A stretch of 37,679 nt of DNA from Desulfobacteraceae bacterium. GTDB taxonomy: Bacteria > Desulfobacterota > Desulfobacteria > Desulfobacterales > RPRI01. This document shows positions 1,766-33,331 of the stretch, in pieces. The stretch's first letter is position 1. Every line of letters begins with the position of its first letter. The notes beneath the pieces are model-generated. The model saw only the letters and a program-made list of their open reading frames with translations, did not search any database and had not been told where the DNA came from. Where the stretch lies: contig RPRI01000037.1 of assembly GCA_003818505.1 (NCBI GenBank), positions 1-37,679 of the forward strand. The letters are read 5' to 3'. A program made the position numbers and the translations under genes.

Positions 1766-1773
1766 AAAAAACA

Positions 1774-12126: not shown

Positions 12127-12159
12127 TTTCTATAATATAAACACATATAGGAGCGAGAC

Positions 12160-12275: not shown

Positions 12276-12307
12276 GGGGGTATTATGCAAAGCGTATCGG
12301 AGGTAAT

Positions 12308-12883
12308 ATGCAGCAAAATAGTTATTATGTTGATCCAACTTCCAGTAGATTGATTATCAAGCGCGATGGACACAGCATTACCCGGCAAATTCCCAAGCCT
12401 GTCATACTTATAGATACCCGTGAAAAGCTACCTTTTGACTTCGAAAGATTTCCCAACTGGATCGCCGAAGAAAAAAGGCATAAACTTAAAGCCGGTGATT
12501 ACAGTGTTGAAGGCATGGAAAAGCTTCTCGCTTTGGAACGGAAAACGCTCTCTGATCTGGTCACGACATTGATGCAGGATCGCCCGCGTTTTTTCAGGCT
12601 TTGTGAACAGCTTGCAAAATACCGGTGGCGTGCCCTGCTTGTAGAAGCCAGCTACGAAGATATCAAGTCGCCATACGACGCGGACTATACACTGGCTCAT
12701 CCCAATGCTGTTTCAGGAACGCTCGATGCCCTGGAAGCCAAATTCGGTATTCCGGTTATTTATGCCTCTCAATACAAACCGTTAGCCGAAGAGAAAGCCG
12801 CAAGCTGGCTTTCCAAGCACTTTACATACTGGTACCTGGAGAAGAATGGTTTTGGTAGAGTGTTGCAGGAGGGAGATTTGTAA
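12308..12883 (+). CDS. ERCC4-domain nuclease
   Basis: A 191-residue protein with the XPF/ERCC4 nuclease signature: IDTREKLPF (Asp36, Arg38, Glu39), KAGDYSVEG (Asp near 66) and ERKTLSD (residues 77-83), together the GDXn-ERKX3D metal site. No helicase or HhH domain is attached, so this is a stand-alone nuclease core of the kind found in phages, plasmids and islands. The ATG has CGGAGG upstream. It stands alone, about 260 nt before the large operon. It might process branched DNA for the element or act in defence. Confidence 0.85.
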   Translation: MQQNSYYVDPTSSRLIIKRDGHSITRQIPKPVILIDTREKLPFDFERFPNWIAEEKRHKLKAGDYSVEGMEKLLALERKTLSDLVTTLMQDRPRFFRLCEQLAKYRWRALLVEASYEDIKSPYDADYTLAHPNAVSGTLDALEAKFGIPVIYASQYKPLAEEKAASWLSKHFTYWYLEKNGFGRVLQEGDL

Positions 12884-13142: not shown

Positions 13143-14063
13143 ATGGAACATGACATAACGATTCACCCTATTTTTGCTCGCCATGAGACCTTTCATCCGA
13201 GATTCGGTTGGTTGAAGAAAGGCTTTGAAAAGGCCGATAAGGATAATTCGGTTTTTTCACAGGAATCTGCGCCCGCCGTTTTGGGTGTCGGGAAAAACAT
13301 GGTCAAGGCCATAAAGTACTGGTGCATAGCGTTCAAAGTCGTCGATGAATCCAGAGACAATGGTAAATACCTCCATAAGCCAACTGAATTTGCAGAAAAG
13401 CTCTTAAAAGATGGCGGATGGGACCCGTTTCTTGAAAACCCCTCATCTCTATGGCTTCTTCATTGGAACCTATTCAAGATGCCCTGCTACGCTCCTGCAT
13501 GGTATTTCACGTTCAATGAGCTCAACAAGATCGATTTTTCTGCTGATGATCTCCTGTTTTGGCTTAAAGAATACAAAAACAGGAAGTTCCCGGACAAGAA
13601 GATATTTGATTCTTCCTTGAATAAGGATGTCAATTGCCTGCTCAGGATGTATGCACAAAGGATTGGTCAGAAAAACTTAAAAGAAGATTCGCTTGACTGC
13701 CCATTCACCGACCTTGGAATAATCAACGCATACTCTGATTCAAAAAGATTCACCTTCAATTTCGGAAATAAACCGAGTTTGCCTCCTGAAATAATTGTCT
13801 CAGCCTGCCTTGAGTTTGCTGCATCCTTTCAATATGATGCTAAAACGATGGCGATTTCACGGTTGCTTTATGATGCCGGAAGCCCCGGCCAAGTCTTCAA
13901 GATGACTGAAAGCTCGCTTAGCGAGGCAATCGAGACGATTTCGAAAAAGGAAAAGCATATATACCTGACTGACACAGCAGGGATGATTCAGTTTGCTTAT
14001 GACGATGATCCATCGGTTTTATCTGAAAGAATTCTAAATAGTTATTTCAGAAAAAGGAACTGA
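13143..14063 (+). CDS. DUF4007 family protein
   Basis: A 306-residue protein matching DUF4007: FARHETFHPRFGWLKKGF near the N-terminus, then VLGVGKNMVKAIKYWCIAFKVV and LLHWNLFKMPCYAPAWYFTFN. DUF4007 genes are typical neighbours of PAPS-reductase-like genes in defence islands, including BREX type 4-like loci. Its biochemical role is not settled; the fold may include winged helices that bind DNA. No strong ribosome site precedes the ATG. The BrxC-like gene begins 1 nt after its stop. A divergent relative is encoded at 28178-29026. Confidence 0.85.
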   Translation: MEHDITIHPIFARHETFHPRFGWLKKGFEKADKDNSVFSQESAPAVLGVGKNMVKAIKYWCIAFKVVDESRDNGKYLHKPTEFAEKLLKDGGWDPFLENPSSLWLLHWNLFKMPCYAPAWYFTFNELNKIDFSADDLLFWLKEYKNRKFPDKKIFDSSLNKDVNCLLRMYAQRIGQKNLKEDSLDCPFTDLGIINAYSDSKRFTFNFGNKPSLPPEIIVSACLEFAASFQYDAKTMAISRLLYDAGSPGQVFKMTESSLSEAIETISKKEKHIYLTDTAGMIQFAYDDDPSVLSERILNSYFRKRN

Positions 14064-14064
14064 T

Positions 14065-17000
14065 ATGCCAATCCTATCGGATTTTGTGTCAGTAAAACGA
14101 AGGTATTCACGATCTGTAAATCTTGAACGCGATTTTGGAATCCCCGACAGCCTGATAGGTTATATCCCAACTTCAAGAGCTATCGACTGCATCGAAAGGT
14201 TTATGAGGTCAGTAGCGCTCAGCAATTCCGTCCGTGCCTGGACACTGACAGGCGCATATGGAACAGGAAAATCAGCATTCGCAAATTTTTTGTTAGCACT
14301 ATCTGCGCCCAGAGACGATGAGAATCATCAAAACGCAATCCAAATAATAAAACAGACCGAAAAATCCAATTCCCTGCAAAGGCAGATCAAAAGCAGGCTT
14401 CCCGAATCAGGACTGATAAGAGCCGTAGCAACAGCGCAGCGAGAGCCCATAACAAGGACAGTCATCCGGGCCCTCAATAGCGGTGCGACGATGTTCTGGC
14501 AGAACATAAGAGGAAGAAAACCGGATGCTTTGGATGAACTCAATTCACTCTTTATTAAATCCCAGCAAGGCGCTGCAATCGACAACAGTCATCTGCTTCA
14601 GGTGATGGACTCATTGGCTCAAGCATCAAAGGCCGGAATATTGCTGATAATAGACGAACTTGGTAAGAATCTTGAATTCTCAGCGCAGAACCAACGCATA
14701 GATGACCTTTATCTGCTCCAGCAGATTGCTGAACTGCCGTCTAACAGAGATGGATTCAATGTGTCCATTTTCGGCCTTCTGCATCAATCATTCATTGACT
14801 ATGCCCACGGGATAGCTTCAGCACAGAGGAATGAATGGGCTAAGATTCAGGGAAGGTTTGAGGACATCCCTTTTATAGAATCTCCAGATCGGATGATGCG
14901 GCTTGTTGGGCAGGCTATTGACCAATCAAACGATAATTCATTCAAATCGAGCGTAGACCAGTGGGCTACAAAGTGGAAAGCGGCTTTGTCAGATCATGAA
15001 ATGTCGAATCAATTTTCAAAAGGCGACCTTGAATCGATCTATCCTCTTCATCCGCTTTCTGCACTGATCCTGCCAATCCTCTGTACTAAATATTCACAGA
15101 ACGACCGGACTCTTTTCACGTTCCTCGCAAGCGCTGAACCTGATTCTTTTTCCACGTTCCTATCCCAAGCGATTTTCAGCAACGAGAAATTGCCAAGCTT
15201 CAAGCTGCACAAAGTATATGATTATTTTGTGGAGTCCGCCGGGATGTCGATCTCGGCAAGGCCGCAATTTCAGAGATGGGTAGAAATTCAATCGAGATTA
15301 TCTGATGCAAGTCATCTTGATCCTGATGTTTTACTGGTTCTTAAGACCATCGGGCTCCTGAATCTTGTCTCGACAACAGGTACTCTCAGAGCCTCTAAGA
15401 GTATAGTCGCTCTTGCGATGTGTAATCATCCGGATGATCGGAATGAACTCCAAAACTGGAACGTTAAGATTAATGAGTTGTTGAACAAAGGATTCTTGAT
15501 CTGGAGAAAGCGGATAGACGAGCTTCGGATATGGGAGGGGTCTGATTTTGATATCGAAAAAGAGCTCTCTGAGCAGGTCGAGATACTCAATATATCCCTT
15601 GCTGATTTGCTCAACGAATATGCCCCGTTAAAGCCTCTTGTTGTGCAAAGGCATAGTTATGAGACCGGGATCCTGCGTTATTTTGAAAGGCAATACTTCG
15701 ATACAACCAAATCCATTAAATCTTTGGAATGCCGAAGCAAAGACAGCGACGGACTCATCTGCTATTGGGTTGGGAATGAAAGAGATATCAAAAAGCTTGA
15801 AAAAATTCCGGAAAAGACATCAGATGGCAAGCCTGCATTAATAATCTGTGCATCTGAACTTAGTGCGCTTCAGATCGCATGTCATGAGTATGTCGCTCTA
15901 AGAAACGTAAAAAAGAACGCAACGCAGTTGCAGACCGATGGCGTTGCACGAAAGGAAGTCAGCCAACGGATCCTATATGCGCAAAGACTGCTAAATGATG
16001 CTCTGTCGAGGTCGTTTGACTTTGCTTCTGGAAAGGTTAATTTCTACGAGCCCGATGAAAAGGTTAAGTTTAAGAACGGGACCTCTTTCCAGAACTATCT
16101 ATCGCTTACCTGCGATAAAATCTATCACCAAGGCCCGTGTCTCTGGAACGAGTTGATAAATAGAAGAGAGCTGACAACTCAGGGAGCTTCAGCACGAAAT
16201 AAGCTGCTGAATGCAATGCTTGAGAATGCCGGCCAGCCAAGACTTGGAATTGTGGGAAATGGGCCGGAATACAGCATGTTCGAATCCACTCTCATTCAGA
16301 CGGGCCTTTATATCGAATCAGAAGATGGTTGGGTATTCTCAAGGCCTCCAAAAAAATATGAGGGCGTTTATCACGTATGGATAGCAATAGAGGATTTCTG
16401 TAAGTCAGCCAAGACAGAATCAAAGAACATAAGCCTTTTATATGATTTGCTTGAAGCTCCCCCTTACGGTGCAAAGAAAGGTATCATTCCGATCCTTTTG
16501 CTCGCAGTTCTACTTTATCATAATGAATATGTAAGCATCTACATCGACGGAAGCTTCATGCCGATTCTCGGCACGGAACATTTTGAACTTTTACTAAAGA
16601 AACCAGAGCGATTCGCTGTTAAATATTTCGAAGTGTCGGGTTTGAGAGCTGAAATTTTTCGAGAACTTGGAAAAATCCTTTCTGGTGACCGTTCCAGGTT
16701 AGACATAAATTTTAGGAATACGACGATTCTAAGCATTGTCAAACCTCTAGTCGGATTTGTAAAACGATTGCCATCCTTTACATTGACAACAAAAACTAAG
16801 GTGACTGAAAGGGCAAAGGCGGTAAGAAAGGCACTTCTTGATGCAAAAGAACCAGATGAGCTTCTTTTTAAAGCACTTCCACTGGCATGCGACCTTCCGG
16901 ACATATTGGACGACAAAAACGATTACAAAAAATCAGTCAAAACATTCAGAGAAAGACTAGTACAGGCTCTAAGTTCTCTTCAAGTTGCCTATGATGACCT

Positions 17001-17580
17001 GCTCGGCCAATGCGAAAACCTAATTAAGCGTGCTTTTGCAATTAAGATAGATTCTCCTGAATTTCGAGGCAACCTCCGTTATAGGGCGATGAATCTTTCT
17101 TCCCAGGTGATTGAATCACGCCTGAAAAGCTTCATTTCAGCATCCACTGATAAAGAATCAGATAATAGATCTTGGCTTGAATCGCTATTGCTAATAATAT
17201 CAAATAAGCCTCCAAAATTATGGACGGATGAAGATGTTATAATTTTTGAAACAAAACTAAGCGATATCGCAAGAAGGTTCATGAATATTGAGTCGCTGCA
17301 AAAGGAAATCGCGATTCCAAGTGAAGGGATCGATGCAAGAAGGATCACCATCACATACCCTGATGGCGATGAGATACATCAGGTGCTATGGATTGACCGT
17401 GATAAGCAGGCAAATATTGAACGGATTGCCGATCATATAATCGAGAGTCATAACCTGAATGACGATATGAACCTAAAACAGGCTGTGACAGCCGCTTTAA
17501 TAGAAAAAATATTTCATAAACGAAGCGAAAAGACTGAAACCAAGAAGCAGGAGCTGAAAAAGGAGCGTAAGGTTGTCTGA
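14065..17580 (+). CDS. BrxC/PglY-like large P-loop ATPase (copy 1)
   Basis: A 1171-residue protein. The N-terminus carries a Walker A motif GAYGTGKS at residues 63-70 and a Walker B motif ILLIIDELGK with Asp197-Glu198. The rest is a long helical region without recognisable catalytic motifs and a Lys/Glu-rich end. Length and motif spacing fit the BrxC/PglY ATPases of BREX systems, large AAA+-like proteins thought to assemble on DNA. It sits between DUF4007 and the PAPS-reductase-like gene, whose TTG start overlaps its end by 8 nt. It probably drives or licenses the modification step. Identity as BrxC proper is uncertain. Confidence 0.8.
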   Translation: MPILSDFVSVKRRYSRSVNLERDFGIPDSLIGYIPTSRAIDCIERFMRSVALSNSVRAWTLTGAYGTGKSAFANFLLALSAPRDDENHQNAIQIIKQTEKSNSLQRQIKSRLPESGLIRAVATAQREPITRTVIRALNSGATMFWQNIRGRKPDALDELNSLFIKSQQGAAIDNSHLLQVMDSLAQASKAGILLIIDELGKNLEFSAQNQRIDDLYLLQQIAELPSNRDGFNVSIFGLLHQSFIDYAHGIASAQRNEWAKIQGRFEDIPFIESPDRMMRLVGQAIDQSNDNSFKSSVDQWATKWKAALSDHEMSNQFSKGDLESIYPLHPLSALILPILCTKYSQNDRTLFTFLASAEPDSFSTFLSQAIFSNEKLPSFKLHKVYDYFVESAGMSISARPQFQRWVEIQSRLSDASHLDPDVLLVLKTIGLLNLVSTTGTLRASKSIVALAMCNHPDDRNELQNWNVKINELLNKGFLIWRKRIDELRIWEGSDFDIEKELSEQVEILNISLADLLNEYAPLKPLVVQRHSYETGILRYFERQYFDTTKSIKSLECRSKDSDGLICYWVGNERDIKKLEKIPEKTSDGKPALIICASELSALQIACHEYVALRNVKKNATQLQTDGVARKEVSQRILYAQRLLNDALSRSFDFASGKVNFYEPDEKVKFKNGTSFQNYLSLTCDKIYHQGPCLWNELINRRELTTQGASARNKLLNAMLENAGQPRLGIVGNGPEYSMFESTLIQTGLYIESEDGWVFSRPPKKYEGVYHVWIAIEDFCKSAKTESKNISLLYDLLEAPPYGAKKGIIPILLLAVLLYHNEYVSIYIDGSFMPILGTEHFELLLKKPERFAVKYFEVSGLRAEIFRELGKILSGDRSRLDINFRNTTILSIVKPLVGFVKRLPSFTLTTKTKVTERAKAVRKALLDAKEPDELLFKALPLACDLPDILDDKNDYKKSVKTFRERLVQALSSLQVAYDDLLGQCENLIKRAFAIKIDSPEFRGNLRYRAMNLSSQVIESRLKSFISASTDKESDNRSWLESLLLIISNKPPKLWTDEDVIIFETKLSDIARRFMNIESLQKEIAIPSEGIDARRITITYPDGDEIHQVLWIDRDKQANIERIADHIIESHNLNDDMNLKQAVTAALIEKIFHKRSEKTETKKQELKKERKVV

Positions 17581-18349
17581 AAAAAAAGTTCGTCACATAT
17601 TGGGGCTCTCAGGGGGGAAAGACAGCACTGCATTAGCTCTGTATCTAAAAGACAGAGTGCCTGATATAGAATATTTCTTCTGTGATACACATAAGGAATT
17701 GCCTGAAACCTATGCTTACCTAAAAAAGCTTGAAATCTTGCTTGGAAAAAAAATCGCGTTTCTTGAACCTGAAAGAGGCTTTGATCATTGGCTTTCTATA
17801 TATGGTGGCTTTCTACCATCTCCTCAAGCAAGATGGTGTACAAAACAGCTCAAAATCATACCCTTCGAAAAATTCATTGGAGAAGACGAAACCATCAGCT
17901 ACATTGCGATAAGAGCTGATGAGGATCGAGCAGGTTATATTTCCACTAAACCAAATATTAAACCAGTATTTCCTTTTATGAAAGAAGGTCTTGTAAAAAA
18001 GGACATATTCAGGATCATCGAAGAAAGCGGAATTGGGATGCCTGATTATTACAAGTGGCGTTCAAGATCAGGCTGCTACTTCTGTTTCTTTCAGCAAAAA
18101 ATTGAATGGGTGAGGCTATCAGAAATACACCCAGACCTATTTGAAAAATCAGTCAGATATGAACAGGAACATGCTGATGGAAGAAAATATCTTTGGAATC
18201 GTAGAGAATCTTTAATAGATATTGTATCAAGAAAAGAAAAAATTATAGAAGAACATATAAATGCTATAAACAAGAAAAAGCTGAGCCAGCCCAACAAGAC
18301 GTTAGTTGAAGTTTTCTCCGATGACTTCTGTTTTGTATGCCATCTGTAA
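17573..18349 (+). CDS. PAPS-reductase / DndC-like sulfur enzyme
   Basis: A 258-residue protein of the adenine-nucleotide alpha-hydrolase (PAPS reductase) fold. The PP-loop SGGKDS is at residues 13-18, followed by FFCDTHKELPETYAY. Cysteines likely to hold an iron-sulfur cluster occur at RWC (Cys89) and CYFC (168-171); a further CFVC pair ends the protein (253-256). DndC, the related phosphorothioation enzyme, uses this chemistry to activate DNA for sulfur insertion. The start is TTG with GGAG about 8 nt upstream, overlapping the ATPase gene. No DndA-like desulfurase is nearby, so a host desulfurase would have to supply sulfur. Sulfur insertion is inferred. Confidence 0.85.
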   Translation: MSEKKVRHILGLSGGKDSTALALYLKDRVPDIEYFFCDTHKELPETYAYLKKLEILLGKKIAFLEPERGFDHWLSIYGGFLPSPQARWCTKQLKIIPFEKFIGEDETISYIAIRADEDRAGYISTKPNIKPVFPFMKEGLVKKDIFRIIEESGIGMPDYYKWRSRSGCYFCFFQQKIEWVRLSEIHPDLFEKSVRYEQEHADGRKYLWNRRESLIDIVSRKEKIIEEHINAINKKKLSQPNKTLVEVFSDDFCFVCHL

Positions 18350-18370
18350 AATATTTTTTGGAGATTTGAA

Positions 18371-18745
18371 TTGAGAAAGATCAAAGAAGATACTCATTTT
18401 TATCTCGATAACGCCCCGCCAGAAGAAGTCACTAATGTCTTAACCGTCCTATCTCTTGATTATGATCTCACTCCAAAAGAAATATCAGATACACTCAGAG
18501 ACAATTATGTTTTTGAGAGGCAGAAACATTATACCTATTCTCTCCAAAAGCTATTCAATTTAGGCCTATCAATCCAAAGCAGGAAATGTTCTGGTATTTA
18601 TAGGTTGTCTGAATTGAGTTCAAAAGTTCAAAATATTATAGGGGTAGATACTGCCATATTGATGGATCTTATTCATTATCTCCACTATATTCTGATACAC
18701 AGGAAAACCGACAAAAGAAAATATCTCTGGAGCTTTAAGCGATGA
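18371..18745 (+). CDS. Small wHTH-like protein after the PAPS-reductase gene, possibly truncated
   Basis: A 124-residue protein with a TTG start and TTGGAG about 10 nt upstream. DYDLTPKEISDTLRDNYVF and HYTYSLQKLFNLGL look like winged-helix segments. The protein ends abruptly in RKYLWSFKR. It occupies the last position of the AT-rich modification block, just before the change of module, so it may be the N-terminal part of a longer ancestor. I do not recognise the family; a DNA-binding partner of the DUF4007/ATPase/PAPS-reductase set is plausible. Confidence 0.6.
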   Translation: MRKIKEDTHFYLDNAPPEEVTNVLTVLSLDYDLTPKEISDTLRDNYVFERQKHYTYSLQKLFNLGLSIQSRKCSGIYRLSELSSKVQNIIGVDTAILMDLIHYLHYILIHRKTDKRKYLWSFKR

Positions 18746-18772
18746 TTTGAACTGATCTGAACAGGGGACATT

Positions 18773-21082
18773 ATGAATACAGTTTTTGAGCAACTAAATA
18801 AACTGAGATTTGGTAAGCGCGATGAAAATGTCAGCCCTCATAAATTTGCTATGCTGTTAGCATTAGCCACGCTATACGAAGATGATCCATTTATAGAAAA
18901 TAAATTTTGCATTACTGATAAGCTTGAAAATATTTTTAAAGATTGTTTTCAAAAATTAGCTCCAACCTACGACATATCTTTGGCCACAATAGATCTCCCA
19001 TTTTATTATCTAAAAAATGATGGTTTTTGGTTTTTGAATATAAAACCAGGATTAGAGGATCAATATTATCAAATTGAAAACTCTTCTAATACTCGTTTTA
19101 CCAAGAAAAGGCTTATTTATATAGTTAGTCATGCACACTTGTCAGAACAATTTGACAAATATCTTCGGGATGCAGGTAATCGAGAAGTATTTTGTATGGA
19201 ACTGAAGAGGCTTTTTCATGCGGCTAATTGTTCCTTGGCAAGTGGAAATAAAAAAAACTTCGAACGAATTTTCATGGCTAAAGCGCGTGATGGGAATTTA
19301 AATCCTTTTGTGGGCTATCTTAATTCCCTGCAGCGGCTAAATGCTAACAATGATAACGCCCTTGCCGAGTACCAAGCCTGTAACCCGTTCTTTTCCTACC
19401 TTCACGTTCCGCATCCTCTGGCACAAGCCATTCTTGACGAGCTTAAGAAGCCGGGAGGGCGACATGTTATCCTCACTGGCCACGCAGGGGATGGTAAATC
19501 AACGATTGCCCTGGAAATATACAAGCAGTTGGCGAACATTTCGAATGAGCAGTCCCTGTCTCATCCTTTGCGGCCTAGGGAGGATTTGCCTGGGGCGGGC
19601 ATAAGCATAATGAAGGACTTAAGCGAGCGCCGCCGAGAAGAAGACCCGGCATTGGTTCAGGAACTGTTGGGTAACGAACGCCGATTTCTGCTGGTGTCAA
19701 ACACCGGTACGCTGCTCGACTTACTATGCGGACAGGCGGCAGCCTTCGGGATGTCCAAGGTGCAAATCGAGAGCGAAATTCTGAACTCCATAGGCACCGA
19801 GCGTGGCGAGGCTGAAATTGCCTTGATCAGCACCCGGTTTTGGGTTGTCAACCTGGCACGTATGGACAACCTAGAGTTCGCGCGGCAAATTTTTGCGCGC
19901 ATGGTCGCACCGGAACGGTGGGCGTTTTGTAAAGAGCTCTCCTGCCGTGTCAACTGCCCCATTTGTTTGAATGTCGATTTGATCAATAACAGGCAGAACA
20001 TCGTCTTCGATCGGATTTTTCTCGCGTACCGCCGCATGTATGAATACGGTACCCGGCTGACAGTACGCCAGATTACCGAACATCTCTCGTATATAGTGAC
20101 CTCAGGGCTTGAGGAGAGCGACATTGCTGAAATGAGAGAGAAGCACCAATCCCCACTCAAAGCGGAATTCATGTTCTTTAATCGCTTCTTCGGGGACAAT
20201 GGCAAGGAGGGGCATCCGGGAGCGCAACAGATGCGTGCGGTCTCGGAAATCAGCAAGCAGGGTTTTGGAGAGAGGCCATGCCCAATATGGGAACGGAAGC
20301 TTTGGCTCAAGTTGAGGGACCGCTATTTTCGACTGGGCGTGGAGGATTGCAACAAGGAGTTCGATTTGCTTCGGGAGCACGGGTCAGGTCCAGGCAATGA
20401 CAATAAACCTGGTTTAAACCCTGACCAAGCGCGAGAACAGGTCCGTCGTATGCTCTACTTCCTTTATGATTTCCCGAATGAGGATGTATCGTTCTTGAAA
20501 CAGTTCCTCAACTCTTCAACCATCCTGCGCTGGCAAGAATGGCAGAGCCCGAAGGTACGACTGGAGATGTCGGAAAGGAACGTGCTCGAGCTTCGCATCT
20601 TTCACGTTTTACAGGAGCACTTTACTGGTGTCCGCCTGCCTGAAGGGGTGACAGAGCACGACCGGCGTCTCTACATTACCCTGAGCCGCGGAAGGAAGGG
20701 ATTTCGGCAGAGTGCACAGGTAGTACTGGCCCAGATCGATTGGAGCAATGAAACAGCGCTTGAGTTGACACGGAGTAAAAACGCTTCCGGGAGGGCCCGT
20801 ACCGATCTGGAACTTAAAGGACGTGGCCGCATTCATGGATCAAATCTTGTACTGACGCTGCCGTTCCTGGACTATGTGGTAATGCGCCATTATGGCGAAG
20901 TGGGCGAAATACTTCAGCCCGCTTATGTGGAAAGGCTGGAACGCTTCAAGACGCAAGTTATACAACACGCCAAGGAAAACCGCTCCGACGTCATGCTGGT
21001 TCGCTTGAAAACCGACCATACGTTCCGCCGCCAGCAATACGCGGTCCTTGACGGAATACTGGAGGTAAATGATGTGCTGTGA
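18773..21082 (+). CDS. Putative sulfur-binding domain fused to a DptF-like P-loop ATPase
   Basis: A 769-residue protein of two parts. Residues 1 to about 165 resemble the DNA sulfur-binding domain of ScoMcrA-type enzymes and related HNH-nuclease N-termini: KLRFG, SPHKFAMLLALATL (21-34) and LPFYYLKNDGFWFL (75-88). Residues from about 168 form a DptF-like ATPase with Walker A GHAGDGKS (236-243) and a Cys cluster CRVNCPIC. An internal Met168 may be the ancestral DptF start. The DNA is AT-rich in the first part and clearly more GC-rich in the second. DptF is one subunit of phosphorothioate-dependent restriction; the added domain would read sulfur directly. No nuclease motif is evident in it. Confidence 0.7.
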   Translation: MNTVFEQLNKLRFGKRDENVSPHKFAMLLALATLYEDDPFIENKFCITDKLENIFKDCFQKLAPTYDISLATIDLPFYYLKNDGFWFLNIKPGLEDQYYQIENSSNTRFTKKRLIYIVSHAHLSEQFDKYLRDAGNREVFCMELKRLFHAANCSLASGNKKNFERIFMAKARDGNLNPFVGYLNSLQRLNANNDNALAEYQACNPFFSYLHVPHPLAQAILDELKKPGGRHVILTGHAGDGKSTIALEIYKQLANISNEQSLSHPLRPREDLPGAGISIMKDLSERRREEDPALVQELLGNERRFLLVSNTGTLLDLLCGQAAAFGMSKVQIESEILNSIGTERGEAEIALISTRFWVVNLARMDNLEFARQIFARMVAPERWAFCKELSCRVNCPICLNVDLINNRQNIVFDRIFLAYRRMYEYGTRLTVRQITEHLSYIVTSGLEESDIAEMREKHQSPLKAEFMFFNRFFGDNGKEGHPGAQQMRAVSEISKQGFGERPCPIWERKLWLKLRDRYFRLGVEDCNKEFDLLREHGSGPGNDNKPGLNPDQAREQVRRMLYFLYDFPNEDVSFLKQFLNSSTILRWQEWQSPKVRLEMSERNVLELRIFHVLQEHFTGVRLPEGVTEHDRRLYITLSRGRKGFRQSAQVVLAQIDWSNETALELTRSKNASGRARTDLELKGRGRIHGSNLVLTLPFLDYVVMRHYGEVGEILQPAYVERLERFKTQVIQHAKENRSDVMLVRLKTDHTFRRQQYAVLDGILEVNDVL

Positions 21083-22685: not shown

Positions 22686-22701
22686 TTAGGAGCGCCAAAT
22701 C

Positions 22702-25700: not shown

Positions 25701-28185
25701 GCGCGGTGTCATTGATGCCTTGCATGCCAAAGCTGAATGGGTGATTTGCATTGATCCAAATATGGACGATCGTCTGATTAAGATTCCGGCTGGAGAAAAT
25801 AGGCGCGAACGGGAAATCATCGGATTCGGTTCCGGGGTTGGTTCCCATGGCGAGGCTAATTATACGATTTCAACCGAGCAGTTTTCGCTGGCCGACATTC
25901 ACGTTCGCTTAGCCGCATCCATTCAAGAGGTTTATGCAGCATGTAACTGGAGTGGCGACGACTGCGAGGCAGCGGCGAAGAGCGTGCTGCACGAAGCTCG
26001 TGAGCTTTCGGGGCTGTCCCTTGTGCGAGCAACCGGAGTCGGCCACTACATCCGTGATTTCATGGCCTACTCGTTGACCCGCAAGATATTGCGCGAAAAA
26101 CGCAAGGTGCTGTGCGACAATTTGGTTTCGTTGGACGCCTACCGGCACTGGTTCGACTTGTCGGACAACGAGCGCCGCCCTGATCTGATGTGGCTGACGG
26201 CATGGTTAGATGAAAACAAGCGCGTTTGCATAAGTATCCGGTTAATCGAATGCAAATTGGCACAGCAGTCGGAAGAGCACTTGATCAAAGCCCGAGCCCA
26301 AATCAACAATGGTCTGCGCGTGCTAGTCCCGGCCTTTGCCCCGCGAAACAAGAATGATGGAGCATTAGGGGAAGACATCCGACCCGACCAACGCTACTGG
26401 TGGCTACAGCTCCACAGGTTAATTGCCAGTAAAGCAGAAATTGAAAATCGCGAACAATTTGAGGTTCTTTCGGCTCTTGAGCGACTGGCTGAAGGCGATT
26501 ATGAGATCGAATGGGGCGCTGCAGTATTTGCATTTTGGAGTGACAGTGACGCAGCGTTCCCCACGCGAATCGGGAGTTGGACAGTGGGCGAAGCGGATGA
26601 GTTGAAAACTGACATCTACGTCATGGGCAACGAATTCGTGCGCAGGCTTGCATTAAACGGTACTGGGTTCCCAGTGACCTGGCGAGAGTGGGAAGACCTC
26701 GCTTCCACAGGGCATGGTAATGTATGTGATGGCCTCGAAGATATTGAGTTACCCCCAGGAGATGATGACGATGAAGACTCACCATTGTGGGCCGATCAAG
26801 ACGACGGTGAGAAGTCCGAAGATTTCGAACCATCTGAGCAAGGTTTGGAGAAAGAAGCACCGCAAGTCGAAATTCAAGAAACTGAGCTTTCACATATATC
26901 ACCTGATTCTGAATTCCAGCCAGTAGCAACAGATCTGATTCCTGATCAGACGTCCGCTCTCGATGAGCCAAGGGCTTTTCTTCCGATCATAACAGAGCCT
27001 GAAAAAGACTTCATAGCGGAGTTCCAGACGTTTCCCAAACGCATACTTTTGGGGAGAACACTCAGCGGAGGCAAACCGGTCTACTGGGAGTTTGGGCACC
27101 CGGAGCTTGCAAACCGCCATATGCTTGTGTTCGGAACCTCCGGCATGGGAAAGACTTATGCCATTCAATGCTTATTGAGTGAGTTTGGGCGTGTTGGGCA
27201 AAACTCCCTGATCATCGACTATACGGATGGATTCATTCCAAGTAAGTTAGAAAAAGCAACTGCTACATGTCTTAAGCCGAAGCAACACTTCATCCAGCAA
27301 GCACCATTGCCTATTCGGCCTTTCAAAGTACAGGTCAGCCATGAAGCCGGAATGGAATTTCCGGATAGCCCCATAACAATCGGCAAGCGGGTAGCTTCAA
27401 TATTCAAGAGCGTTTACGAGCTTGGCAATCAACAATTCCCCATTTTGATTGATGCTATCAGCGAGGGTGTCGAGAGGTTTGGCGACAACTTTAGCTTAAA
27501 TAGACTCCTTGAAATCCTTCAGACCTACATCGAGGATGATATTCATGGGACCGCCACAGTGCGGACGACAGTTAGCAAGTTGAAACCGTTTATCCAGAGC
27601 AACCCCTTCTCGGACGACGTGAATGGGATTGGCTGGCAAGAACTATTCAGCGATGTGGATTGCCGCTGTCACGTGTTTCAGTTCTTTAAGGTCGACAAAC
27701 ATTCGGCGCGCGCGTTGATTGAGTTCGTCTTGTGGGATCTGTATGCATTCGTCAGCAGCCATGGGAACGAGAACACACCTCGGGTGGTTGTGCTTGATGA
27801 AGTGCAAAATCTCGATCTCGGTCCCGATGCTCCTGTCGCTAAATACCTCACGGAAGGTCGGAAACACGGGCTTGCCATGATCACCGCCACACAAACAGTT
27901 AAGGGAGTTGGTGGAGTCAATGATGCCAGAGTCAGCCGTTTTTTTCAAGCTGAACAGAAGTTGTTTTTCAAACCGACTGAGAACGAGATGCGCGAACACG
28001 CTCAACTTTTACACAACGCTATCAGCAACGTCAGCGTACAGGATTGGGCAACTCGCCTTGCTTCCCTCCAAAAAGGTGAGTGTTGGTCCTTGGGCCGGAG
28101 CTTGAACGAAGCGACAGGGAAATTGGTCTTTCAAGCACAGCGCATCAGGATAACCTCATTAGAGGAGCGAGGGTTCAATGCTTAA
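22702..28185 (+). CDS. DptH-like giant protein with C-terminal HerA-type ATPase
   Basis: An 1827-residue protein of DptH size. The C-terminal ~350 residues are a HerA/FtsK-type ATPase: Walker A GTSGMGKT (1478-1485), SLIIDYTDGF, PLPIRPFKVQ, Walker B VVVLDEVQNLD (Asp1699-Glu1700), KYLTEGRKHGL and KLFFKPTENEM. A very acidic linker (about 1350-1420, including DDDDED) precedes it. In the centre, RPDLMW (Asp1161) and IECKLA (Glu1183, Lys1185) are spaced like a PD-(D/E)XK nuclease site. DptH belongs to phosphorothioate-dependent restriction complexes; HerA-type motors translocate on DNA. The ATG follows TAGGAG. The nuclease assignment is inference. Confidence 0.8.
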   Translation: MSYFADSAWKSIDKKIAKTKLQSDIAVGKKLLVMVPALSEGATLDLATTLASRCAADNTVDLTLKIAQVVTASWSSSGFNNAKDQRWLDERGNLAYYRSNLPLVPGKVSLVVLCGADRVTDAGSLDDFYRCDLETVWQIEMRGSFQSWTRVKLQSIGLAYDQPSELREFDRLMKPLLEQGRADLLQISAWFEALDLNAASTIREAQRIMLGRYQAFQLPKFSKFQLGRTRVSLGPYIEKAHAFFTYALFLDNKERDKADKAIRQILSCIDRREDTGLPLDDEDVRGPYETREAFLEGLNNYIQTEDHDDRERLRQCDFVTIIDKILKFRKKGEKKDPDPFRKLSGSPVEMVLYSLWQTFRDFKRDKRFNNAELQRVEIACDHFKHDYESAADVSDATIDRTDSARQYLMRLLGGVDGLVAARVEVSGADVQNVPVACRLASEEVACSYSKTAEPRLEFSVYFFHDADDNPYRRKFAWRLPEIQTYRLSEGLLHWAKDALEEDHGVWKLPVFHLPYYEELLRATDDEETRRVMLHCIRDAHQDDAKWTNLLGREWLASGDILLPHLKRLADKYTRFISAAYISGLHVALFGDEWTQLRQAYTAACESVVDDGSTSVSQMLAMLIRTFLVVQRRSAEFGVAWGTEPYERSAVATVLHPAVLEMLEAKIVFLFSCFNAAVASEQRRDDRSKAFAEKIWNGYVDLASIQSPIAGLLYNTDLNLDTNIRGQELIHRIGSPEQSEATLSTRLLLRYESVNEEEEVTDTEMFRESRESKLLFRLMTDYFRLHPHARDGLAIAVYRNQDIQTVIAAVHQYLNKLADEKDRRYYALSPERQKPYAIGVTIFTESGDDVDVARWIDQWRERWEAAETEGKFQAYRRCRFAVAHRIVQTTQLLSFQRLINDNLEADIVVLYDFIGAGQGGNRFTEVTPFDITTRTLKFPILEKSCCAVRHPTDSYKRSRVMSNLQFNMGMLHTQIMHRLKNQGVQPGREFVVLGIGDFAPWRGVIDALHAKAEWVICIDPNMDDRLIKIPAGENRREREIIGFGSGVGSHGEANYTISTEQFSLADIHVRLAASIQEVYAACNWSGDDCEAAAKSVLHEARELSGLSLVRATGVGHYIRDFMAYSLTRKILREKRKVLCDNLVSLDAYRHWFDLSDNERRPDLMWLTAWLDENKRVCISIRLIECKLAQQSEEHLIKARAQINNGLRVLVPAFAPRNKNDGALGEDIRPDQRYWWLQLHRLIASKAEIENREQFEVLSALERLAEGDYEIEWGAAVFAFWSDSDAAFPTRIGSWTVGEADELKTDIYVMGNEFVRRLALNGTGFPVTWREWEDLASTGHGNVCDGLEDIELPPGDDDDEDSPLWADQDDGEKSEDFEPSEQGLEKEAPQVEIQETELSHISPDSEFQPVATDLIPDQTSALDEPRAFLPIITEPEKDFIAEFQTFPKRILLGRTLSGGKPVYWEFGHPELANRHMLVFGTSGMGKTYAIQCLLSEFGRVGQNSLIIDYTDGFIPSKLEKATATCLKPKQHFIQQAPLPIRPFKVQVSHEAGMEFPDSPITIGKRVASIFKSVYELGNQQFPILIDAISEGVERFGDNFSLNRLLEILQTYIEDDIHGTATVRTTVSKLKPFIQSNPFSDDVNGIGWQELFSDVDCRCHVFQFFKVDKHSARALIEFVLWDLYAFVSSHGNENTPRVVVLDEVQNLDLGPDAPVAKYLTEGRKHGLAMITATQTVKGVGGVNDARVSRFFQAEQKLFFKPTENEMREHAQLLHNAISNVSVQDWATRLASLQKGECWSLGRSLNEATGKLVFQAQRIRITSLEERGFNA

Positions 28186-29026
28186 AGCAGCGGAACATAG
28201 TCGCATGCCGCGGAACTTCCACAAGACGTTTAAACCTGAACGTCACTACATCAACGCCATGTTACGATATGCGGCTTCCGGCGAAGAGGGTGACTATCAG
28301 GCCATTGCTGCTGCTACGGGAATTCCGACGGGTACATCGAGCGGCAAGGTCCCGGCCATTTTGGACTATTGCAGAGGAATGGGCCTGATACGATTTACGG
28401 GATCGGACCGGTCTTCAATCAAGAAGCCGGATTTGACACCTTTTGGCCGGATCGTATTGCTGGAAGATCCCTACCTGAAGTCCACTACCAGCCAGTGGAT
28501 AGCACACTTAAACCTATGCGGCCCTCTCACCGGAGCAGACGTGTGGTACCACACCTTCTTTGCCGGGACACAGGCTCTCGGTATGAATTTTTCTAGGTCA
28601 AAACTTGAGACCCATTTAAGTGTCATTTATGGGATCGAGAAAAGCGGAATCATAGGGCCACTGGTCGGGACATACGAGGAGGATGCTGCTTTTAAGATGT
28701 GTGGCGCGCTGTCTGAAATTGGTGGCACAATTGTGCGACGGCCAGCACCTATCGGAGTGGAGCTTGGGCTTGCTTATGGCGCTTGGATGCTTCAGTTGAT
28801 GAGCGACCATTTCCCGAAACTGCGTCAGGTGCCGATTACGGATCTCGATGCAACAGCCGGGTGGCGCACAATTCCCGGGTGGGATGTCTCCAGCCTACAG
28901 AGGGTGCTGGAACTCGTTGAGCGCAAAGGAATAATTGAGGTTGATCGACATATGGAGCCTTGGCTTCTGATCCCGAAAGCTGGGCCTGATGAGGCTTGGG
29001 GGCGCATCTATGACGATATGCTATAA
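28178..29026 (+). CDS. Divergent DUF4007-like protein (copy 2)
   Basis: A 282-residue protein that can be lined up by eye with the DUF4007 protein at 13143. TGTSSGKVPAILDYCRGMGL occupies the place of the VGKNMVKAIKYW segment, LTPFGRIVLLEDPYL the place of PTEFAEKLLKDGGWDPFL, and WIAHLNLCGPLTGADVWYHT the place of WLLHWNLFKMPCYAPAWYFT. A winged-helix-like end follows. Its ATG overlaps the end of the DptH-like gene by 8 nt, and the second BrxC-like ATPase follows after 12 nt. So the DUF4007-ATPase pair occurs twice in one operon. Its job in the restriction half is unknown. Confidence 0.65.
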   Translation: MLKAAEHSRMPRNFHKTFKPERHYINAMLRYAASGEEGDYQAIAAATGIPTGTSSGKVPAILDYCRGMGLIRFTGSDRSSIKKPDLTPFGRIVLLEDPYLKSTTSQWIAHLNLCGPLTGADVWYHTFFAGTQALGMNFSRSKLETHLSVIYGIEKSGIIGPLVGTYEEDAAFKMCGALSEIGGTIVRRPAPIGVELGLAYGAWMLQLMSDHFPKLRQVPITDLDATAGWRTIPGWDVSSLQRVLELVERKGIIEVDRHMEPWLLIPKAGPDEAWGRIYDDML

Positions 29027-29038
29027 AAAGGAGGCCCC

Positions 29039-32000
29039 ATGACTCAACGGCTTAATGACATCGTTCGCTTTCGAGGCGATCGCTTGTTCAATGGTGCGGT
29101 CAGCATAAGTTGGTTTGGCACGGATGAGGCAAAATTCAAGGCGGCCAGTCAAGCATTTATTTTCCACGGCCCGAAATACCACGGGGTCCAGCAGAAAGAT
29201 GTGGGCAGTGGACATGGGCATCGTCTCATGGATACAGCAAGTCTCGCCCACGCCGTGGTTCGAAGATGTTATGGGTTGGAGGATCAGCCGTTTACGCTGG
29301 CTATAGCCGGATATGGCACTGGCAAATCGCACTTGGGGCTAACGCTTGCGGGTCTACTCAGCGACCCTGATGGAGAGAGCGCCCAGAACGTGCTTTCAGC
29401 CATAGAGACCGCAGATGCCGAAATAGGAAGTGACATACGGGTATTGCTGCAGGAGGCAAGACAGCCGTGTTTGGCTCTTACCCTAAACGGAATGCAGAGT
29501 TTTGACCTTACCGCCGAAATCACAAAGCAGATTGTGCGGACCCTCAAAAATGACGGACACGACCCAAAGCCTTTGGATGATCTTCGGCCCAGATTTGGTC
29601 AGGCCGCGAGCTTAATCCGAATGTCGAATGAGGGAGTCGTCAGGGAACTTGAGGCGGCATTTGAAGCCATGAGCGTCAAAGATATTCTCACCGGCCTGGA
29701 TCAACATGATGAACAAACTTACGCGAAGGTACACGGTTTCTTTGCAGCACAAGGAATGTCTATTAGGGCGCTCAGTGGAGAATCCGTTCGGGATGTCATT
29801 GACGTCACGGTTCGCGAGTTTTGCGGTAAAGGGAAGCCCTATCGATGCCTTCTAGTACTGTTCGACGAGTTTGGAAAGTATACTGAATTCGCTACAGTTC
29901 GCAGCCAGATTGCCGGCAGCGGAGTTCTACAGGACTTGTTTGAGGCAATACAGGCGAACGCAAATAGCACATGTTTCTTGGGATTTATTCAGTTTGAGCT
30001 GAACGCATACGTACAGCGAGTAGCCCCTGAGCACAAGAATGAGATTCTGAGGTATGTGACTCGTTACCAGTCAGCCAATAGGGTCTACCTGTCCATCAAC
30101 CTTGAGACACTGATAGCGAGCCTTATTGAGAAGTATAAGCATAAGCTTTTGGATAAGTGGTTTGAGGGTAAGAAGGCTAAAAGCGATTCGGAAGTCACGA
30201 TGGCGAATATTGCCCGATGGTTCCCTCAATCTAAGAATCACAGGCTTTGGGGCGATTCCGATCAGTTTCATGCCGTGATCCGCAAGGGGTGCTGGCCGCT
30301 GTCGCCCTATTCTTCATGGCTTCTCTTCTATCTTGCTTCAGCTGGAAAGCACCTACAGGAAAGATCTGCCTTAGCCTTGTTGGGTGATGTTTTTCACCGT
30401 TACGAGAATGTCGAGGTATCCGACGATGGGAATTGGTCGCTATCACCAGCTGACTTGTGGTCGGATGCTCTTCAACAGGAACTCATCAGTTCTGAAGAGA
30501 CTGGCCAGCAAGGGTCCATAACGCTATCTTATGCATCAGTGATGGCAAGGCATGGATCACGTCTGTCTCAGGAATTGCAGCGCCTCCTCTGCTCTGTTGT
30601 CTTGGCATCGAAACTCGGACTCCAGGCAATAGACAAGAACGATGCAATCGAAGCGTTGGGGGAACTCGGAGGTCTGTCTCTCGGTGTTGCTGCAAAGGGT
30701 GTTAAACTCCTGCAGGAAGAGTATAACGTCTTGGAGTGGGACGAGGCCTTTAAAGCATTCTACATTCTCGGTGATGCGGTTCCACGCACTCAATTTCTGT
30801 CTTTTGTCCGCCAACGTGTTGCGAGTTCCTATGATGAAGCCGGGAAGGCAAAACTGTTTGCAAGCAAAGCGGCTGAATGGTGCGATCTGCTCAGTGACTT
30901 AGAATGTGATTTTGCAGAAGAGAACAAAATCACGACCCGAGAATGGCGTTATCAAGCCGTGACGTCCAATCTTGACTATCTCCCTCAACAGATCAAGATT
31001 GCCAGTGATCGTTGGTCGGGAGCCATAGCGGTGGATGATTCCCGAGGCACGATCGTTTATATCTATGTGGAGCAAAGCCGGGACCCGGATACTATTGTTT
31101 CAGACGCCCGGAGGCTTTTGAAGACCATGGCGCAAGAATATGGTGTGTCAGCTTTGCCAATCTTAATGGTACTCTTGTGCGACGAGAACGGAACATTGGG
31201 ACAGGCTTTGGCGGAGTTTGCTGTCCTTGAAGAATCACTCAGCGAAGAGGATCGTGTTAGGTTCGGCAATCTGATTGGTGCCCACAAAGAAAAGTTGCGA
31301 CAGGTGATCCGGGAACAAGTCGAAAGTTTGGTGAAACAAAGGCGCTATATTACGGGACTCAAAGAAGAATTGGAGACTCATAGACTTAGCCGAGCAGGTA
31401 CTGAGTTGTTTGCAAAGATATACAAGACTCCAATACCATTCCCTTTTGATGGCTTTAGCACTGCAAAAGGAAACGCCGCTGACACTTGTCAGGAGTTAAC
31501 TCTCGAGCTGCTTCTTGGCAAGCTCGACTATGACGGGGCTATTGCAAAGCCGATTAAGTCAAAGAACAGGGCTGTAACGGTATTGAAAGAAACGTGGGGA
31601 ATTTTCACAAAGAACGGTAAAGTTTCAAGGCGGCCTGCGTATCCAGTCGTACGTGCGATCACGGAAAAATGGGATGATGCTTTGGCCGCAAATGAACGGA
31701 GATTACCAGTTGCGGATGTTATCAGTCAACTATGCCGTCCCCCGTATGGCGGGAATATTGCTTCTGCGGGGCTTCTTTTGAGTGTCTTTGTTGCACCGCG
31801 CGCTGAAAAACTCGTTATCGTGCGCAACGGGCAGCAAATAGCCGTTTCTCAATGGGTGCAGGAAGGAGTTTTCCGAGGTAAATTCATCGACTTGTCAGCT
31901 CTTCATGGCATTGAACTTATTCTTCTCGGCGAGGTGTCCTCGGAATGGGAGACGCTCTTAGATGAATGGGAGCAGGCCGAGAGTCATCTTGCGCGCAAGA

Positions 32001-33331
32001 GCTGTCTAGAAAGGTCTTATGAGCTAAAGAACCGCGTACCAGTTCCCCCTTTATTGGGGTACCGAGAGGTGCATCTGCGTGAACAGGCGTTGGCGTCCGC
32101 AGAAGCCATGGAAAAGATGGAGAAATCTCAGGATGAAGCTATATCGAAAATAGAGCATGGAGGAAAATATCGTGATATCAGCAAGATGACGTGGGGAGCT
32201 GTATCTCTCAAAGAGCTCTGTGAGAAAATGGCTACCGAGGAGTCCCTTTGGACTGAGTCCCAGATTGCCGAAGTCCAACCACACTACGAGAGGGCTCGCC
32301 AGGGGACCATCTTGTTCTTCCCGGACTGGGTCACCCAACAGACACCCATAAACGATGCCCCCGAATCTGTGGGTGATTTCAAGCATAAAATGCTCCGCAT
32401 AGTGGGAGGAAACCTCAAAAAACTGGATCTGGAGCAGCAGTTTCAAGAATTGGAGACGCACACACTTCAGGTAATCCGAAAAGCAGAAACAATAGCAGAG
32501 GCCCATCAGCTTTTGCGAGATGTGAATTCCTGGTTGACCACAAAAGGCGATGCCATTCGCATTGTGCGGGTTGCGGAAATACGAGGTCTTGTTGAGGTTG
32601 GCAAGGACTATTCTAATAAGTTACAGGGCATTGCTGGGCGCATACAGATACCTGAGATTATCGAGACGCGTGCAAGGCTCTCAGGGTTCCTATCAAAACT
32701 GAAGAATACCGAAGCCGAAACCACCAAACGTGCATCTCGCCTCTGGCAAACCAAAATTCAAACCGAAGCGGACATAGATCCTATCCTCGGAGAAGTGGAG
32801 TCCTTGGTTGGCGCTTTTGAGAACTTACCCCGAGATCTTGAGGACCTCCAGCTTATGCGACGTGCCCTCAGGCTCTATCAGAAAGAATATACACGCCTCT
32901 CGGACGACAACTTGAATTGGGGCGAGTTCGAGACCTTAATCGAAGAGATTCGAAAGGAATGGGCCGTTACCCTTGGGGAAGAGGAGCCGCCCTGGCTACC
33001 TGACGACACAATGGATGGTTTCGTCCAGGCCATTTCAAAGCGTCGCAAGCTAAATAGCACAGCATGGATTGAGTCTATAGAAGCCCAAGTAGAAAGCATT
33101 CCGGCCATGCCGGCAGACGAAGCCAATCGTTTCCACAATCGAATCCTCACCCCTCCCCCTGTCGTGACAGATCCGCATCTGCAGCGCACGGCTGTTGTGG
33201 TTAGGAAAGTACGGGCGCGGTTAGATGCACTGAATGTTGAGTGGTTGCTTGAAAAATTTAAGGAATTACCGCCAAAGGCAAAGAAGGATTTTATGCAGCG
33301 AGCCCAAAAACTTGGTGGAGATAGCGCATGA
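29039..33331 (+). CDS. BrxC-like large P-loop ATPase (copy 2)
   Basis: A 1430-residue protein. Walker A is GYGTGKSH at residues 91-98 and Walker B is LLVLFDEFGKYTEF with Asp276-Glu277, the same arrangement as the ATPase at 14065 but with little other obvious identity. Residues about 1020-1330 are Glu/Lys/Arg-rich and probably coiled coil or long helices. The ATG has AAAAGGAGG upstream. It is the last gene of the operon and shares the GC-richer composition of the DptF/G/H-like genes. It may be an assembly or licensing ATPase for the restriction arm, paired with the DUF4007-like protein before it. Confidence 0.75.
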   Translation: MTQRLNDIVRFRGDRLFNGAVSISWFGTDEAKFKAASQAFIFHGPKYHGVQQKDVGSGHGHRLMDTASLAHAVVRRCYGLEDQPFTLAIAGYGTGKSHLGLTLAGLLSDPDGESAQNVLSAIETADAEIGSDIRVLLQEARQPCLALTLNGMQSFDLTAEITKQIVRTLKNDGHDPKPLDDLRPRFGQAASLIRMSNEGVVRELEAAFEAMSVKDILTGLDQHDEQTYAKVHGFFAAQGMSIRALSGESVRDVIDVTVREFCGKGKPYRCLLVLFDEFGKYTEFATVRSQIAGSGVLQDLFEAIQANANSTCFLGFIQFELNAYVQRVAPEHKNEILRYVTRYQSANRVYLSINLETLIASLIEKYKHKLLDKWFEGKKAKSDSEVTMANIARWFPQSKNHRLWGDSDQFHAVIRKGCWPLSPYSSWLLFYLASAGKHLQERSALALLGDVFHRYENVEVSDDGNWSLSPADLWSDALQQELISSEETGQQGSITLSYASVMARHGSRLSQELQRLLCSVVLASKLGLQAIDKNDAIEALGELGGLSLGVAAKGVKLLQEEYNVLEWDEAFKAFYILGDAVPRTQFLSFVRQRVASSYDEAGKAKLFASKAAEWCDLLSDLECDFAEENKITTREWRYQAVTSNLDYLPQQIKIASDRWSGAIAVDDSRGTIVYIYVEQSRDPDTIVSDARRLLKTMAQEYGVSALPILMVLLCDENGTLGQALAEFAVLEESLSEEDRVRFGNLIGAHKEKLRQVIREQVESLVKQRRYITGLKEELETHRLSRAGTELFAKIYKTPIPFPFDGFSTAKGNAADTCQELTLELLLGKLDYDGAIAKPIKSKNRAVTVLKETWGIFTKNGKVSRRPAYPVVRAITEKWDDALAANERRLPVADVISQLCRPPYGGNIASAGLLLSVFVAPRAEKLVIVRNGQQIAVSQWVQEGVFRGKFIDLSALHGIELILLGEVSSEWETLLDEWEQAESHLARKSCLERSYELKNRVPVPPLLGYREVHLREQALASAEAMEKMEKSQDEAISKIEHGGKYRDISKMTWGAVSLKELCEKMATEESLWTESQIAEVQPHYERARQGTILFFPDWVTQQTPINDAPESVGDFKHKMLRIVGGNLKKLDLEQQFQELETHTLQVIRKAETIAEAHQLLRDVNSWLTTKGDAIRIVRVAEIRGLVEVGKDYSNKLQGIAGRIQIPEIIETRARLSGFLSKLKNTEAETTKRASRLWQTKIQTEADIDPILGEVESLVGAFENLPRDLEDLQLMRRALRLYQKEYTRLSDDNLNWGEFETLIEEIRKEWAVTLGEEEPPWLPDDTMDGFVQAISKRRKLNSTAWIESIEAQVESIPAMPADEANRFHNRILTPPPVVTDPHLQRTAVVVRKVRARLDALNVEWLLEKFKELPPKAKKDFMQRAQKLGGDSA

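Follow-up and report, generated by a model that had tools for sequence, protein, structure and literature searches.

Phosphorothioate (PT) defence in which the marking genes SspBCD are coupled to the restriction genes SspFGH was published in 2021 from Vibrio anguillarum FF-93 (PMC8092258). In the available part of that source, SspFGH is a cassette of three genes, each of them required, that is sufficient in Escherichia coli; SspFGH alone damages unmarked DNA, an effect that SspBCD restrains and dndBCDE does not, and SspB is a DNA-nicking nuclease required for marking (PMC8092258). A further theme, taken from the accessible portion of PMC10853773, links HerA to Orc/Cdc6-type ATPases and SspB-like winged helix-turn-helix (wHTH) proteins in HerA-FtsK capture systems, and reports wHTH, NERD and kinase domains fused to DndF, the sulfur-binding domain (SBD) being equated with wHTH. 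Here we describe a nine-gene operon in a 37,679-nucleotide stretch from a Desulfobacteraceae bacterium (contig RPRI01000037.1, hereafter the window), which joins SspBCD and SspFGH to a second, distant SspB-SspC pair, SspB2-SspC2. Within the literature searched, as far as its text was accessible, the SspBCD-SspFGH core is known and the SspB2-SspC2 pair in the restriction half is a new part. The window is the entire contig C91 of a 4.43-Mb genome, and our view of the locus ends where the contig ends.

The operon consists of nine tandem plus-strand open reading frames (ORFs) of 306, 1171, 258, 124, 769, 538, 1827, 282 and 1430 amino acids (aa), with gaps between neighbours of -14 to +27 nucleotides (nt), which bears out the tightly packed arrangement between 13143 and 33331 described in an initial annotation made from the DNA letters alone. 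Profile searches (Pfam, PADLOC and NCBIfam) gave a family for eight of the nine proteins, gene 4 being the exception, and the resulting order is SspB-SspC-SspD, gene 4, SspF-SspG-SspH, SspB2-SspC2. Our PADLOC scan covered 24 window ORFs, shorter ORFs being left out, and among these the models for DndA, DndB, DndD, DndE, PglX, PglZ and BrxL had no match, as the annotation had anticipated. Its view of the operon as BREX parts making a mark and Dpt-like parts joined to them holds for the Dpt/Dnd-like restriction set and for its union with a PT-making set, whereas the first half is SspBCD by PADLOC and not a BREX set. A promoter scan upstream of SspB found no site on the plus strand and two on the minus strand.

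SspB2 (28178..29026, plus strand) is a distant SspB paralogue in the restriction half (PADLOC SspB 5.4e-5). It passes the Pfam DUF4007 cut-off narrowly (9.6e-7, 28.6 bits against 27), while its counterpart in G602 passes at 35.1 bits (G-numbers denote genomes and L-numbers loci in this analysis), and hhalign aligned SspB2 with SspB at P 98.8 over 260 columns and P 99.1 over 262 columns. With an AlphaFold2 (AF2) model built from 52 sequences (predicted local distance difference test, pLDDT, 93.9; predicted template modelling score, pTM, 0.92), the top three Foldseek matches were SspB crystal structures (6lb9/6juf; E 2e-8 to 3e-7, TMq 0.68-0.70), and SspB2 is thus predicted to have the SspB fold. 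SspC2 (29039..33331, plus strand; PADLOC SspC 3.1e-12) is a distant SspC paralogue that aligned with SspC at P 99.9 over 759 columns, the C-terminal part of SspC2 remaining unaligned. Its Walker A (residues 91-97) and Walker B (D276-E277) motifs are kept in at least 90% of 64 rows, with the proviso that our conserved-row counts include two duplicates (L015 = G132, L045 = G296). Together these genes are the second DUF4007-ATPase pair that the annotation had recognised, and no second SspD accompanies them. Because 16 of 16 SspC2 proteins lie on one side of a 100% branch in a quick, unrooted tree of 34 proteins, SspC2 reads as one old family rather than the product of repeated local duplication. 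A PDB sequence search with SspC2 found no relative, with one designed repeat protein at 0.0014; no relatives were found in viral contigs, and plasmids yielded one weak match over 27% of the query. A search of the PMC literature, with supplements and most subscription papers outside its range, found no published SspB2/SspC2 pair and no Ssp genes beyond SspH. The annotation's proposal of an undescribed variant is thereby narrowed: the SspBCD-SspFGH composite is published, whereas the second pair is not described in the available part of PMC8092258.

The arrangement recurs widely. SspC2 is present in five of the 395 genomes of the phylum, the window's own included, and all five carry the order B-C-D-F-G-H-B2-C2, with SspC interrupted in G210. 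Scanning genome contigs with a five-sequence SspC2 alignment confirmed 81 of 130 stretches, of which 80 were kept; the scan catches only contigs holding one of two short peptide patterns and is not exhaustive. Judged by their record titles, these 80 loci are all bacterial and come from 16 named phyla plus one without a phylum; most are from metagenome-assembled genomes, and many of the contigs are short. When each step of the order was scored strictly, SspB2 came before SspC2 in 76 of 78 testable loci and SspH before SspB2 in 69 of 73, with SspG before SspH in 44 of 45 and SspF before SspG in 40 of 41, and median gaps along the F-G-H-B2-C2 string are -8 to 12.5 nt. The eight misses comprise four loci where the missing gene is listed, which read as ORF-start overlaps (L027, L039, L040, L059), three that look broken, decayed or rearranged (L060, L064, L092), and L041, which has no SspG before a short SspH. 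About 1.8 kb separates SspH from SspB2 in L061 and L087; in L061 (7318-9143) it holds a 402-aa AAA-type ATPase, judged by eye, and a 217-aa protein. SspD was present in 42 of 50 genomes checked out of the 80, with 37 SspD neighbourhoods retrieved, and in a group of Bacillota loci the genes run D-B-C and the SspD-like protein is longer (~550-590 aa) and matches only weakly. Because eight family genes recur in four phylum relatives and the last five in other phyla, the neighbourhood order, whose recurrence the annotation had wanted surveyed, is more than chance.

Both co-divergence and linkage group B2C2 with the restriction genes and not with the marking genes. Across 21 loci with all eight proteins, distance correlations were r 0.70-0.86 within B-C-D, 0.83-0.96 within F-G-H-B2-C2 and 0.51-0.63 between the blocks; since a permutation test was significant for all nine pairs tested (p 0.001-0.002), the contrast between blocks lies in the size of r. 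In a set of 34 loci the F-G-H-B2-C2 string remains at r 0.89-0.95. Three rearranged loci (L043, L062, L063) keep FGH-B2-C2 intact, with BCD behind it or on the other strand.

The rest of the attack half, SspF-SspG-SspH, stands in a row beside SspBCD and matches the known models only distantly. The SspF core, a P-loop region at residues 177-769 (19301..21082, plus strand), matches PADLOC SspF at 2.4e-28 from residue 177 and has a conserved Walker A. SspG (21069..22685, plus strand) matches its PADLOC model at 2.2e-22, against 4.5e-200 and 5.6e-205 in G523 and G645, and may be the DNA-binding subunit by analogy with the published inference for DndG. SspH (22702..28185, plus strand; PADLOC DndH 9.6e-46 and SspH 4.2e-20; Pfam TrwB_AAD_bind and DUF87) combines a PD-(D/E)xK-like motif (RPD1161 ... 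E1183-C-K1185) with a C-terminal HerA/FtsK-type ATPase, the nuclease-like motif and Walker A/B being conserved in at least 90% of 51 rows. A PDB sequence search found no relative of SspH; its HerA part has three matches in plasmids and one weak match in phage records.

In front of the SspF core, residues 1-176 (18773..19300, plus strand) form an SBD (phmmer to SBDHga1, 8h0l, 1e-12), by homology a putative reader of PT-DNA. Among window-type loci the domain is found at E<=0.01 in 26 of 30 SspF N-termini, the weakest noted being G602 (0.0013) and the exceptions G132, L026, L089 and L043. Residues H23, K24 and P76, kept in 26, 25 and 26 of the 26 SBDs, were equated by motif and not by alignment with H116, R117 and P165 of ScoMcrA, where, in the part of PMC6224610 available, the R117 position is lysine in most homologues. 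The SspF proteins of G132, G186 and G296 have a further long N-terminal region, which by eye could be NERD plus tandem kinase domains, a pattern published for DndF.

From gene order, homology, the predicted SspB2 fold, motifs, block grouping and the mosaic structure described below, we infer the following biochemical steps. As expected from their families, SspB-SspC-SspD would place PT marks on host DNA together with a cysteine desulfurase encoded at another site in the genome. SspF-SspG-SspH would form the attack complex, in which the motifs of SspH suggest a HerA/FtsK-type motor with a nuclease-like activity, and the SBD on SspF, judging by its fold and residues, may in this operon read PT and veto attack. 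SspB2-SspC2, an SspB-fold DNA-recognition protein with an ATPase, would find or load on DNA and pass it to SspFGH; we favour this role as a search or loading engine because HerA, Orc/Cdc6-type ATPases and SspB-like proteins together are a published theme. We thus lean, with moderate confidence, towards an extended SspBCD-SspFGH PT restriction-modification operon in which SspB2-SspC2 is the DNA-recognition ATPase pair of the attack complex. A broader reading is more tentative, although possible: a widespread, unnamed subtype of PT defence in which marking and attack halves are each steered by their own SspB-SspC copy, SspB2-SspC2 for attack, and in which, in part, an exchangeable SBD on SspF decides attack. 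How PT attack complexes find DNA and how they recognise self are questions that the PMC literature covered leaves unsettled. Because the attack half of this subtype includes its own DNA-recognition ATPase pair and, in the window's group, a recognisable PT reader, both can be approached by single-gene removal and binding assays. The arrangement also suggests that the attack module in this lineage comprises five genes, SspF-SspG-SspH being only part of it.

A number of findings pull the other way. The three-gene SspFGH defends E. coli as published (PMC8092258, available part), and three published-type SspFGH loci (G645, G523 and the second locus of G296) are without B2C2; we call published-type those loci with very strong PADLOC SspG matches, a class defined here by score. 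In G708 the FGH is of window type and the genome contains no SspC2; SspC2 matches were likewise absent from the genomes G645, G523 and G966. In the 34-locus set, where SspC is left out, B-D correlates at 0.75 against 0.72-0.81 between the blocks, so that the marking block is not distinct, and among 11 Bacillota loci all correlations reach 0.84-0.98. Between the window and G132, B2C2 is 84-86% and BCD 73-80% identical, and FGH just 47-50%, with DNA similarity over B2C2 (85%) beginning at 28196, 18 bases into SspB2. Because identity drops in FGH and rises again in B2C2, FGH or its flanks have been exchanged at least once, and B2C2 is not tied to one FGH. An AF2 model of SspH residues 985-1330 (pLDDT 82.6) had no significant PDB match, and because of this the proposed nuclease rests on the motif and on the published DndH inference.

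The SBD adds to these objections. None of 14 further B2C2 loci (12 Bacillota, L062 and L063) has it: their SspF is the core only, beginning at residue 2-17 and giving an SBD match never better than E 0.17. The domain is also missing from SspF of G645, G523, G296b and G708. In total, 26 of the 44 SspF examined in B2C2 loci have it, so the domain is optional, and the idea of the SBD as a constant feature of the system is ruled out by the 14 SspF that lack it. Where present, its divergence is almost uncorrelated with that of every other part (r 0.15-0.31). Because of this absence and this near-independent divergence, the SBD cannot be the general PT reader, and another PT reader must exist in the many B2C2 loci without it. 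No match in specificity was found between SspB and the SBD, whose distances correlate at r 0.15 (21 loci) and 0.22 (16 loci), nor between SspB and SspB2, the L057 proteins being 35% and 77% identical, respectively, to those of the window.

SspFGH loci without B2C2 were surveyed using one SspG model as the probe. In the phylum it marked five of 395 genomes, the same five as SspC2; in the class of G395 (the genome of L062) five of 369, G395 and G602 having B2C2 and the other three lacking it (G645 and G523, both published-type, and G708, window-type); and in the class of G402 four of 341, three with B2C2 and one, G966, a weak match, without, these class fractions being biased by the choice of G395 and G402 as carriers of B2C2. 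G296 holds both a published-type SspBCD-FGH locus (contig 11, L122/L123) and an extended locus (contig 18, L013/L014). In an SspG tree of 54 rows, a long branch (4.12, 100/100) separates the three published-type rows from the others, and G708 falls within the B2C2 loci, a position that we read as loss of B2C2 in G708; placement of the long G966 and G296b branches is unsure. The B2C2 place in G708 (L120 6088-8673) is occupied by a TIGR04096 PT-associated putative methyltransferase (5.1e-176), and in G602 (L118/L119) a protein similar to it by eye comes after SspC2.

Other roles for the pair can be weighed against this evidence. If SspB2-SspC2 were a governor of FGH, keeping a toxic attack complex inactive until infection and performing no DNA search, its position as the tail of the same gene string would make sense, and a brake would be useful, since FGH without marks harms the cell as published. 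We regard this role as unlikely: the published-type loci and G708 retain FGH without B2C2, and the SspB fold and the ATPase suggest DNA work, a weak objection in itself. Lower still stands a second modification pair, which would share the one SspD and let the operon mark two DNA motifs. B2 and C2 are indeed homologous to marking subunits, and one SspD could conceivably serve two pairs, yet in the 21-locus set B2 and C2 correlate with F, G and H at r 0.83-0.93 and with D at 0.55-0.56 (B2-D, the only one of these two D pairs put to the permutation test, is also significant, p 0.002). Moreover, B2C2 come after SspH in nearly every testable locus and remain with FGH in the three rearranged loci seen, and we consider such a pair improbable.

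It might also be argued that nothing here is new, and that the locus is the usual SspBCD-SspFGH operon accompanied by a passenger pair without functional importance. BCD and FGH do match PADLOC models of a published system, gene 4 appears to be a relic, and some FGH loci manage without B2C2. Against this, a pair kept in place over 16 named phyla, whose SspC2 retains its Walker motifs in at least 90% of 64 rows, is unlikely to be passive, and the window's SspF, SspG and SspH match the models only distantly; we give this view marginally less credence even than a second modification pair. A DNA-recognition ATPase pair of the attack complex is thus the role that we continue to prefer for SspB2-SspC2.

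The operon is a mosaic at the DNA level. The window is 71% alike to G1168 over 13161-18744 and 88% alike to L030 over 19301-33315, the latter alignment beginning at SspF residue 177, the same start as the PADLOC SspF match. The L030 contig also resembles window positions 17508-18412 (78%), which leaves 18412-19301 as the unlike stretch. The SBD lies between the G1168-like and the 88% L030-like tracts, and its GC content is 0.326 (third-position GC, GC3, 0.25) against 0.525 in the SspF core (GC3 0.60).

The marking half is more conventional. SspB (13143..14063, plus strand) has strong matches to Pfam DUF4007 (7.4e-97), PADLOC SspB (2.3e-116) and the solved SspB structures 6juf/6lb9 (phmmer 3.5e-57). 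It is followed by SspC, the BrxC/Orc-type ATPase of this half (14065..17580, plus strand; PADLOC SspC 1325 bits, E 0), for which a PDB sequence search found no relative, and by SspD, a PAPS-reductase-type sulfur transferase with a TTG start (17573..18349, plus strand; PADLOC SspD 1.3e-109). The SGGKDS loop, C89, C168 and C171 of SspD are conserved in at least 90% of 43 rows, and its match to DndC is weak (1.3e-7). The three genes are adjacent, an order repeated in the four phylum relatives; in G210 (L009, contig 7, about 1172-5863) SspC is split by ~1.2 kb containing a minus-strand 270-aa ORF, perhaps an insertion element. The operon has no SspA gene, and a NifS-type desulfurase lies on a different contig (TIGR03402 match of 619.1 bits, cut-off 530.75). 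Some of the relatives (several loci, e.g. L124, L125, L131), unlike the window, have an ORF of 391-394 aa between SspD and SspF that, judged by eye, resembles a cysteine desulfurase (SspA).

Gene 4 (18371..18745, plus strand; 124 aa) shares 62% identity with residues 7-128 of a G1168 protein of 284 aa, and DNA homology of the window to G1168 ends within it at 18744. It had no family match in the Pfam, PADLOC and NCBIfam scans and no match in plasmids; none of the four phylum relatives has a counterpart in the SspD-SspF interval, and 96 genomes of the order yielded a single relative other than gene 4 itself. Gene 4 therefore appears to be the truncated stump of a G1168-like module and is probably not a working part. 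In G1168 itself (L174, contig 35), a different module stands behind SspBCD, headed by the 284-aa homologue and continuing with a 170-aa ATPase-like, a 1368-aa BrxC/D-like, a 368-aa weakly PglZ-matching and a 390-aa HerA protein, then a 155-aa GIY-YIG protein (below cut-off) and a 429-aa DndB. This is perhaps another PT-linked HerA system.

The surroundings of the operon offer several further observations. Between it and the left end of the window lie D5_N/NrS-1 polymerase-like and DUF932 genes (3-1247 and 2786-3724), suggestive of a mobile element; an N-formylglutamate amidohydrolase-like gene overlapping a GmrSD_N gene (6543-9028), the latter matching HEC-05 and PDC-M55C and weakly resembling SspE; and genes for a WYL regulator (minus strand), ARPP-1, an ADP-ribosylglycohydrolase and an ERCC4-domain protein (9049-12883). 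Upstream of SspB, at 12155-12292, is a dispersed repeat of 138 bp whose predicted RNA fold is strong (z -3.48) and which reaches the gathering score of no Rfam family. At E<=1e-5 its own genome contains 43 matches, a count that includes the repeat itself and partial copies, with 40 of 70 candidates scored, and L030 contains two (22460-22596 and 24158-24262). Because the repeat recurs across the same genome, the window contig probably belongs to the 4.43-Mb genome. Near the other contig end (36614-37564), a ZorA-like gene (2.3e-19; 316 aa, shorter than the models) is perhaps the start of a Zorya-like locus.

Several described systems share parts with this operon. The annotation had wanted its relation to the archaeal PbeABCD examined, and the comparison does not support one: in the part of the source available, that set consists of helicase-like PbeA, PbeB of 66 aa, SMC-like PbeC and PbeD of 152 aa beside DndCDEA, a different gene set, and we reject the identity, with no DndD, DndE or Pbe-named match in the window (the presence of Pbe models in PADLOC being unconfirmed). 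In the text of PMC12839542 available, BREX type 4 shares DUF4007, a BrxC-type ATPase and a PAPS reductase with the window, and BREX-related capture (BRC) systems share DUF4007, a BrxC-type ATPase and HerA. The window differs in having no PglZ or BrxL match among the 24 ORFs, on which ground we reject BREX of any type, and in having HerA as part of SspH. DndABCDE-FGH does not fit either, DndB, DndD and DndE being unmatched in those ORFs; the same absence sets the window apart from the DndFGH/HerA-FtsK capture systems (PMC10853773, available part), which share the HerA/FtsK ATPase at the SspH C-terminus, whereas in the window the ATPase and wHTH partners are paralogues of SspC and SspB, set within a PT system that includes SspBCD. 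The SBD enzymes, ScoMcrA (PMC6224610, in its accessible portion) and SBDHga1 (8h0l), share SBD homology and the H, K/R and P residues, and differ in that the SBD of the window is fused to SspF, a fusion that the wHTH-DndF fusions of PMC10853773 may already cover in part. Closest of all is SspABCD-SspFGH as described in the available part of PMC8092258, with which the window shares SspB, SspC, SspD, the SspF-SspG-SspH cassette and a desulfurase outside the operon; where the published cassette has three genes, that of the window has five, with SspB2-SspC2 at its end and an SBD on SspF.

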